A DNA stretch of 40,752 nucleotides, taken from Spirulina sp. CS-785/01 (GTDB taxonomy: Bacteria; Cyanobacteriota; Cyanobacteriia; Cyanobacteriales; Spirulinaceae). The notes under the pieces were generated by a model. It had not been told where the DNA came from and ran no database searches. It saw nothing but the letters and a program-made list of their open reading frames with translations. A program made the translations under genes and the position numbers. This document shows, piece after piece, positions 11,230-40,752 of this stretch (position 1 is its first letter; every line of letters begins with the position of its first letter). The stretch lies in NCBI RefSeq assembly GCF_028330525.1, contig NZ_JAQMSD010000331.1:1-40752 (forward strand). Direction: 5' to 3'.

Positions 11230-13902
11230 CTAATGTTCATTCAAGAATTGACGGATTTTTTGGATATTAAACGTTTGCAATAACTGCTCTAATTCATCCA
11301 CAAAGGTTTTATACTGATCATCTAAAATGGCAAGACGTTTTAATTCAGATTTCAGACCACTCATTTGTCCCTTTTCTGCATATTCTCTCAAGGTTTCTAA
11401 CTCGGAGGGAGGAGGGATAGTTAGGGTATCGTTTGCAACAACTAAAGTATCCTTTACTACCAAGTTTTCATTTTCATAAATCCAATCAAAATTGAGATAT
11501 TTTTGTAGCATTTGATAGAGATTATCAGCTTCTACGGGTTTCGCTAAGAAATCATCTCCTCCTGCATCGAGACTTTTTTGTTGATCTGCTTCAAATACAC
11601 TGGCCGAAGACACAATAATTAAAGTATTTTTTAAATCGGGATGTTGTCGGATTAATTCTAAAAATCTCCAACCATCCATAACAGGCATTTTTAAATCTGT
11701 AATAATTAAATCGGGGTAATATTGGCTGGCTTTTTCTAGTCCTTCTTGACCATTTTCAGCCTCTATAAGGTCAAACCCAACGGGTTTTAATAAGTTCACT
11801 AAAACCGAACGATTTTCCCAGCGATCATCGACAATTAAAATAAGACGACTTTCTCCACTATATCCTTGAATAACTCCTTTTTTGGTGAGACTATTTTTAA
11901 TAATCCAATCATTGGATAAGGGACATTCAATAGAGAAAGAAAAAACACTCCCGACTCCTAATTGACTCTCTACCTGAATTGTTCCCCCCATCATTTCAAT
12001 GATTTTTTGACTAATGGATAATCCTAGTCCTGTTCCTTCTGCTTTTTTATCACTGTCTCCTACCTGTTCAAAGGGGTTAAAAATCTTTTGTTGTTGTTCG
12101 GAAGTCATCCCAACCCCTGTATCTTCTACAGTGAAAGATAAACGGACTTGTTGGGGGGTTAAATTCTCAATTTGCACATCAAAGATAATGTGACCTGTAT
12201 CGGTAAATTTAGTAGCATTACTAATTAAATTAATTAAAACTTGTCTGAGGCGTTTTTCATCGGTTTTGATGCCTTCCGGTAGCTGTTCGGGGGGATGATA
12301 AATAAAGTTAACTCCTTTCTTTTCTGCGCGAATTTGGCACATTTCCACGACACTCTGGAGGAAAGAGGGTAAATGAAAATCTTGGGGATTTAACTCCAGT
12401 TTGCGGGCTTCAATTTTAGAAATATCGAGGACATCATTAATGAGGGTCAGCAGGTGAGACCCACATTGTTGAATGACGGTTAAGCCATGTTTTTCCTGTT
12501 CATTGAAATTGGCAGAACGCTGTAAGACTTGGGTATAACCTAAAACCCCATTGAGAGGGGTTCTTAATTCATGACTCATGTTGGCCAAAAACTCACTTTT
12601 GGCCCGGTTGGCATTATCGGCGATTTTTTTGGCTTTTTCTAATTCTGCGGTGCGTTCTTTTACCCGGTCTTCGAGGTCATCAAAGGAGGTTTTTAACTGT
12701 TCTGTCATGCGGGTAAAGGCATTTTTGAGAATGTCTAATTCATCTCCTTGTTCGAGGTTGAAGGGAGAGAGAGAAGTCCCATTGTTTGAGGCATTTTTGG
12801 CGTTATTTAAACGACGAGACCGTTCTACGTCAGCTTGGGCTATTTTAAAACATTCTTCTAAAATGGGCTTTAAGCGTTGATTGAGTCGCCGCACAAACAA
12901 CGCCACTACCCCTGCTAAAATGATACCAGCCCCGATCGCACCTCCTGCGGCAATCAGAATCACAGGTTGCAACACCACTCCCTGGGGAACAGATGCAAGC
13001 ATCACCCAGTTAGTCCCCTCAATACGTTGATAGGCCCAAAAACGGCCATTTCGTTCCAACCATCCCACTGTCTCTTGAGACTCCCGATTAATTTGTTGCC
13101 ACAGAAACTGCAAGTCGGGAATATCTGCATAGGTTTCTAAGTTCACCGCTTTTTGGGGGTTCGGTGGATAAGCCAGTAAATTGCCCTCCTGACTTAAAAT
13201 AGCAAAATACCCATCTTGCCAATTCTCAGGAACTTGAACCTGTTTATTCAGTTCCGTGACATTAATATCTAAGCCAGAAATGCCTATAATTTCCCCATTT
13301 TCATCAAAAATTGGCCTCGTTACCGTGGTCATTGTCACCCCTGTCCAGCGATAGGGTTCTAACCAAAGGGTTTCTCCTGCATTATACGGTCGTAAATAAT
13401 ATTCCTGTTCCAAACAATCCTGATCAACGGAACAAGCATCAACATAGCGAATATGTTCATAAGGTGGGGCTAATGTTTCCCCTTCTTGACCTGGAACATC
13501 TTGATCTAAAAAATAAAATAACCAATAGGCTTCTCGGTCTGGAAAAATTTTTTGAGGAAATTGCCCAAACCCCAACGCCATAGTTAAAGAAGACCGTTCT
13601 TGAAACAGATCAAAGACGGTTTGTTGATAAGTTTCTAAATCTTCGATCCCATAACGGTGCATGGATTTGACTACGGCGGTCAGATTTTCCATAGTGTTTC
13701 TCGCTACCGCTAATTCCCCTTCAATGATCTCTACTTGGGTACTGAGTTGCCCTTGAATATCTTCCTTAGCCCGATGCTCTAACACTTCATAAAACAAATA
13801 AGCGATACTACTAAAGCCAACTAACGCGCCGCCTAAAACATAGATAAATAATCTCGCTCCAATCGACTGACGCAGGGATTTTTTTTTCTGCTTTACAAGC
13901 AT
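11230..13902 (-). CDS. Hybrid sensor histidine kinase (dCache-HAMP-HisKA-HATPase-REC)
   Basis: 890 aa. TM1 is about residues 17-42. A periplasmic double-Cache-like sensor (about 45-315) follows, including [20 protein letters not shown] and [10 protein letters not shown]2 is about 317-345, then a HAMP-like region and a coiled coil ([18 protein letters not shown]). The HisKA phosphoacceptor is H444 in [12 protein letters not shown]. The HATPase domain has GVGMTSEQQ and [13 protein letters not shown] receiver domain carries D736 in [12 protein letters not shown] and a conserved Lys in FLAKPVE. The last about 65 residues are helical and unassigned. It likely senses a small extracellular ligand and relays phosphate through its own receiver to an unlinked partner. 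It reads in the same direction as the synthetase and kinase genes before it, but with a 199-bp gap. Confidence 0.93.
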
Positions 13903-38918: not shown

Positions 38919-40672
38919 TTAACTGGCTTGGTTCTGCTCAAGATAGAGCCATTCTTGAAAGTTAATGAAGACATCCCGAATTTGCTGTACATCTCCGAGG
39001 GTGGCGATCGCGTCATTAATACTACGATACTTGAGTTCGAGGAGTTGGGGTAATTTCTCTTGGTTGAGTTCCCCTACTCCCTCACGAATATATTGATCTA
39101 ACACAAAATCGAGAAACTCTTGCTGTTTCCCGGTATAACGGGAGAAAATTAGACTCTTGTGGGCCATGACTCGCTCTCGACGGCTGATGGGTGGCTTATC
39201 ATAGGCGAGGAAGGTGAGAACGTCAAAGACATCACTATTCTCAGCATCGGCGATTTTCTGGACGGCTGCAAGTTGGTCTTCGCCATAGCCTTTCTCGGCT
39301 AGTCCTTCGAGGAGGGTGGCGCGGGTATCAGGGCGACTCCACAGTTGACGCAGTTGGGCTTCATCTTGGAAAAGATTGGGCAATTCTCCGTAAAGGCGTT
39401 GGACAAATTCGGTAGCGGAAATGGGTTTACCCTCTGGACTCCAGTAGGTGGTCCGGGTTAGGTGCTGAATGCTGCGCTTTTTGCCATCGGGAAGGTCGAT
39501 GATGATTTTTTCAGGACGTTGGCGGGGTTCATCGGAGGTGGGGAGTTGGTCTGGTTCGGATGGAGTCCGGTGCTGTTGTGGGGTAATGCCTGTGGGCGGT
39601 TCTTGGGGAGGGCCATCCCATTCCGGGTCGTTAAATTTTTCGTGGGCGCGAACGAAGTCGTAGATGGTGAAGTAGTCTTTGTCTTGGAAGATGCGCGTAC
39701 CCCGACCGATAATTTGTTTAAATTCAATCATGGAGTTGATGGGACGCAAGAGGACGATGTTCCGCACGTTTCTGGCGTTGACTCCGGTGGAGAGCTTCTG
39801 GGAGGTGGTGAGGATGGTGGGGATGGTTTTCTCGTTGTCTTGGAAGGTACGGAGGTTTTGTTCCCCTAATGTGCCATCATCGGCGGTGACGCGGACACAA
39901 TAGTTAGGGTCGGGGCTGGCTTTCATTTGGTTGATCAGGTCGCGTACCATCAGGGCGTGTTGTTGGGTGGCGCAGAAAACTAGGGTTTTCTCGTTGGGGT
40001 TGATGGCTTCCATGAAGGTTTTGACCCGATAGGCTTCACGGGGGCGCATTTCGATGATACGGTTGAAGTCGGCTTCGGTGTAGAGGCGATCGCGCTCAAT
40101 GGTTCCAGCTTCGATAATGTCTTCATCGCTATAGACATATTCATCGAGGTTGGTTTGGATTTGGTGAACTTTGAAGGGGGTGAGGTAGCCGTCTTCGATG
40201 CCTTGGGCGAGGGAGTATTCGTAAACGGGTTCGCCAAAGTAGTTGTAGGTATCGACATTATCATCACGGCGGGGGGTGGCGGTTAGTCCCAGTTGGACAG
40301 CGGGGGAGAAATATTCGAGGATACCCCGCCAGGTGCTTTCGTTTCTCGCACCGCCTCGGTGACACTCATCCACGATTACGAGGTCAAAGAAGTCGGGGGG
40401 GTATTCACTAAATTGGAAGTTGGGTTCGTTGTCTTCCTCTGTATCGTCGGAAGTCGAGGTGCTTGCACTGAGCGAAGTCGAAGTGCTTTCGGTCATGAAG
40501 GTTTGAAAAATGGTGAAAAAGATGCTCCCATTTTTGGGGACTTTACCTTTTTTGCGAATCGTGTCGGGGTCAATGCGGACTAACGCCCCAGCAGGAAAGG
40601 CGGTGAATTCGATGAAGGCTTGGTCTGCGAGGTTATTGCGGTCAGCTAGGAAGAGGATGCGGGGAGTCCGGG
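38919..40672 (-). CDS. hsdR: Type I restriction enzyme, R subunit (HsdR), 5'-truncated
   Basis: The reading frame is open from the stop to 40672, where genomic sequence ends, so the N-terminal PD-(D/E)xK nuclease and Walker A are missing from the contig. What is present: motif Ia-like RILFLADRNNLADQAF, DEAD/DEAH motif II DECHRGG, GLTATP (III), then LVFCATQQHAL, QIIGRGTRIF (VI) and an EcoEI-type C-terminal domain (GKQQEFLDFVLDQYIREGVGEL). HsdR translocates DNA and cuts it in complex with HsdM/HsdS, which should lie beyond the right edge. A Ser/Thr repeat (STSTSLSASTSTS) interrupts the helicase between motifs Ia and II. The ATG at 40496 is internal and not the start. Confidence 0.92.
40450..40487 (-). 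repeat. In-frame direct repeat within hsdR
   Basis: Two 14-bp copies (40450-40463 and 40474-40487), differing at one base, encode STSTS-LSA-STSTS on the minus strand. A GCACT/AGTGC palindrome lies across the right half. It resembles a repeat-type insertion tolerated in a surface loop. Confidence 0.6.
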
Positions 40673-40752
40673 CTGTCTCTTATACCACATCTGACGCTGC
40701 CGACGATATCGGACCGGTGTAGATCTCGGTGGTCGCCGTATCATTAAAAAAA
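40673..40752. other. Illumina/Nextera adapter, not genomic
   Basis: 40673-40692 is the transposon mosaic end (CTGTCTCTTATA, then an extra C, ACATCT). 40693-40706 is GACGCTGCCGACGA. 40707-40716 is a 10-base index. 40717-40745 is the reverse complement of the P5 arm, from GTGTAGATCTCGG to GTATCATT. Seven A follow. This is the standard order of an i5-side read-through. Confidence 0.98.

Follow-up and report, generated by a model that had tools for sequence, protein, structure and literature searches.

The final 80 bases of the window (the whole contig C325, positions 1-40752) are, with a probability of about 0.99, untrimmed adapter from a short tagmented fragment that was read through, with which the assembler extended the contig past position 40672. 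Aligned to the adapter, bases 40673-40752 resolve into its parts in order, on the Nextera read-1 side and in reverse complement. On the plus strand, the Tn5/Nextera mosaic end occupies 40673-40692 (19/19 bases, with one inserted C) and adjoins the insert. It is followed by the read-1 adapter tail at 40693-40706 (exact, 14/14 bases), a 10-base i5 index as read, that is, the reverse complement of the oligo, at 40707-40716, placed by its position between the read-1 tail and P5, the Illumina P5 sequence at 40717-40745 (exact, 29/29 bases) and seven A at 40746-40752. The adapter is terminal, its last base being the last base of the contig, and this is the arrangement of untrimmed Nextera read-through. 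We take the letters of the mosaic end, read-1 tail and P5 to be the standard Illumina/Nextera sequences. The alignment scores 133 at the contig end; other stretches of 102 bases, taken at 25-base steps along either strand of bases 1-40660, score 19 at best. P7, the read-2 tail and the TruSeq stem have no exact match in the window. The initial annotation had read these bases from the letters alone as mosaic end, read-1 tail, 10-base index, P5 and poly-A, with an additional C in the mosaic end, and both its coordinates and the inserted base agree exactly with the alignment.

The adapter is unique within the genome. We searched the whole assembly (5,395,290 bases in 351 contigs) and, with up to 3 mismatches allowed, P5 was found at a single place, exactly and at this contig end. 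The read-1 tail has five places at no more than 1 mismatch, of which only that at the contig end is exact, and CTGTCTCTTATA, the 12 bases with which the mosaic end begins, has its one exact copy there too. The read-2 tail is absent from the genome at no more than 1 mismatch. An ungapped scan for the mosaic end with 3 mismatches returned one unrelated place, on C105, and missed the contig end because of the extra C.

Across 388 genomes including this one, the read-1 tail followed by ten bases and P5 occurred in 0 of the 387 others at no more than 1 mismatch; since the pattern demands an index of ten bases, adapters with 8-base indexes would escape it. The 33 bases of mosaic end plus read-1 tail were found in at least 120 stretches of genome_contigs and at least 120 of viral_contigs, and the titles of the genome_contigs records among the matches listed span Streptomyces to Flavobacteriales and Bathyarchaeota. 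Among the matches listed (246 places in 240 stretches), no more than 100 bases separate the adapter from the stretch end at 240 places, and 136 to 2,153 bases do so at the remaining six; for some viral records the searched stretch was shorter than the contig, so a stretch end is not always a contig end. Matches to all or part of the 80 bases also occur in phages (64 of 50,697 records), plasmids (11 of 72,556 records) and E. coli (4 of 5,426 genomes). This joint occurrence in unrelated public records supports the identity of the adapter letters.

A 10-base index is rare in this comparison set. Among the matches listed, 83 of the 246 places have a readable index before the start of P5: 81 of these indexes have 8 bases, one has 6 and one has 10. 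The index of the contig with its flanks has 0 matches in viral_contigs, the exact 26-base form of the mosaic end with the extra C has no match there either, and literature searches for the 10-base index sequence and for the peptide encoded by P5 in the hsdR frame found no paper in the library searched. The library type claimed initially therefore holds as far as Nextera-style tagmentation using an index of 10 bases and does not extend to a named kit. The seven A after P5 would fit the poly-T spacer of the flow-cell oligo. The last bases of P5 are followed by at least 3 A within 60 bases at 6 of the 246 listed places, and of five such places inspected, one (L181) has ten A and then G and three carry A runs longer than ten. 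As the length of the run varies between records, its length here is no proof of such a spacer.

The genomic sequence abutting the adapter belongs to hsdR. On the minus strand, positions 38919..40672 carry the C-terminal 583 residues of the type I restriction subunit HsdR with its EcoEI_R_C domain, encoded by a frame that is open over 38919-40670; the 5' part is missing. The product gives profile matches to ResIII (from profile position 55), SWI2_SNF2, Helicase_C and EcoEI_R_C, and shares 87% identity with a portion of the HsdR of G045, a genome of the same order in which the hsdR ORF is whole (L249, 827 aa). In the plasmid collection, the nearest DNA matches to hsdR are cyanobacterial, at 66-70% identity in the first seven, and so point to a cyanobacterium. 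In an ungapped comparison with G045 hsdR, 60 of the 71 genomic bases adjoining the border agree, compared with 6 of the 20 adapter bases adjoining it and 27 of 80 over all adapter bases. Judged from this alignment, homology to the intact gene reaches 40672 and drops to chance in the adapter, in keeping with the earlier estimate of 40672 bases for the genomic part.

The adapter also creates false gene calls. A TAA at 40680-40682 on the minus strand, supplied by the mosaic end, falls in the frame of hsdR, and because of this stop the mechanical ORF list begins the gene at an internal ATG at 40496, giving 525 aa. A gene finder may likewise start hsdR at that ATG. On the plus strand, the list contains a spurious 70-aa ORF at 40510..40722, antisense to hsdR and running into the adapter. 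The initial warning that plus-strand calls past 40672 are artefactual applies to this ORF; it was too narrow in that minus-strand calls are affected as well. The false in-frame stop is an addition to what had been noted before, as is a repeat, described below, that may have caused the break.

The missing N-terminal portion of hsdR sits at the end of another contig. The N-terminal 247 residues of G045 HsdR match one place in the genome, C97 11833-12492, at 89% identity over query residues 1-228, and the last base of C97 is 12501. The hsdR part on C97 comprises 223 residues without a stop, with HSDR_N and ResIII profile positions 3-57, adjoining the ResIII positions 55-164 of the window part. 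The gene directly upstream of hsdR in G045 is also directly upstream on C97. Over the last 303 bases of C97, hsdR stays in frame to the final base and the mosaic end is absent. Taken jointly, the two contig parts hold the complete domain set of a type I R subunit (HSDR_N, helicase motor and R C-terminal domain), all of which are present in the whole HsdR of G045. Since the N-terminal part sits at the end of C97 with adjoining ResIII positions, this is one hsdR gene split over two contigs by assembly, and the artificial cut asserted initially is borne out both by C97 and by the whole gene in an 87%-identical relative. We infer that C97 and the window adjoin across a short gap, within which a frameshift may conceivably lie.

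C97 ends in GGAGGGTTGAGC (12490-12501), a motif that matches a repeat of the relatives. At the same place, the hsdR of G008 carries an 18-bp unit containing GGGTTGAGC in 7.1 perfect copies (L255 602-728), that of G045 has two imperfect repeat copies and that of G014 a different short duplication; no repeat is visible there in the hsdR of G017, G026 and G002. The comparison was scripted for seven relatives, and G010 (L251) gave no line, the search motif having no match. In the protein, this position falls in the loop that directly follows the Walker A helix of HsdR. One repeat form of the relative, TTGAGCGCAGTCGAAA, has 0 places in the genome of the window at no more than 1 mismatch, which argues against a copy in precisely this form. 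The assembly break probably lies at an in-frame repeat of the kind present at this position in some relatives. Whether it marks an in-frame repeat of the HsdR motor domain whose copy number varies among relatives and might tune or switch restriction is a doubtful proposition. The match to the HsdR of G008 (L255, G008:C16 99436-101117) falls into two segments that lie in separate frames, the second of which contains one TGA, and so this bearer of the 18-bp array may be broken. A separate observation concerns TTCGRCTNCGCTCAG, a dispersed element with 14 exact places in the genome compared with 0 for the reversed control. Copies lie in both parts of hsdR with the frame intact (window 40468-40482 on the minus strand; C97 12467-12481), and that on C97 is flanked by bases which by eye are able to pair, GTTGTC and GACAAC.

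These results bear on three other accounts of the contig end. The gene might be truly broken or truncated here, the adapter being merely incidental; a start at the first ATG past the in-frame stop gives only 525 aa, though that stop is within the adapter. However, the frame is open to 40670 and encodes a protein 87% identical to that of G045, where the gene is whole, and the N-terminal part and the next upstream gene stand at the end of C97 in the order seen in G045. We consider a true truncation improbable, and natural truncation of hsdR was rejected on the open frame and the rest of the gene on C97. Rather less probable still is a chimeric library molecule in which adapter was joined to genomic DNA by some route other than plain read-through. 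The extra C in the mosaic end could signal such an unusual molecule, but the order and orientation of the parts are those of short-insert read-through, and the same order recurs in other records.

A real Tn5-type insertion in the cell, with the mosaic end as one terminus of a transposon, whether natural or engineered, would account for a mosaic end adjoining an interrupted gene. Against this, the read-1 tail, index and P5 come directly after the mosaic end, and these are library parts that no natural transposon is known to carry. Moreover, on the other side of the interruption, the last 303 bases of C97 lack the mosaic end and hsdR runs in frame to the last base. Such an insertion has a vanishingly small probability. 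A natural Tn5/IS50 insertion was rejected as a candidate, as the adapter continues to the contig end with no transposon body and there is no other exact CTGTCTCTTATA in the genome.

Read-through of a short library fragment is thus the account we prefer. A short tagmented fragment from this site would have been read through into the read-1/i5/P5 adapter, and by the usual library geometry the adapter-bearing read would be read 2. The adapter was presumably left by a failure of trimming, and the assembler would then have used this read to extend the contig beyond the last real base at 40672. The repeat may have stopped both contigs, the short adapter-bearing read being the last extension. The true sequence would run on over a short unread gap, probably the repeat, into C97. 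One feature, the extra C in the mosaic end, is not predicted by plain read-through; sequencing, oligo and assembly errors are candidates for its origin. The lack of a viral_contigs match to the exact 26-base form with that C and the rarity of 10-base indexes among the records compared also count against this account.

The contig end is a laboratory artefact of a known and ordinary kind. For curation, the 80 bases should be deleted from the contig, hsdR flagged as partial owing to assembly and linked to C97, and gene calls touching the adapter dropped. Moeller et al. 2024 (PMC11536531) report that, in databases of published microbial genomes, adapter contamination is found chiefly at the ends of contigs, which they consider consistent with adapters having broken contigs. 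The present contig is one further case of the database problem described there (PMC11536531), with the adapter at the contig end as in the cases of Moeller et al. 2024 (PMC11536531); the relevant passages of that article concern Illumina universal adapters, and its main text has 0 occurrences of "Nextera". Compared with the Nextera/Tn5 tagmentation adapter with Illumina P5, all fixed parts are present here in the same order, and the mosaic end differs from that of Nextera by one extra C. Compared with EcoEI_R_C-type HsdR proteins, C97 carries HSDR_N and the start of ResIII and the window the rest of ResIII, Helicase_C and EcoEI_R_C; unlike the usual member of this type, the present HsdR is divided between two contigs, which an unread gap separates.
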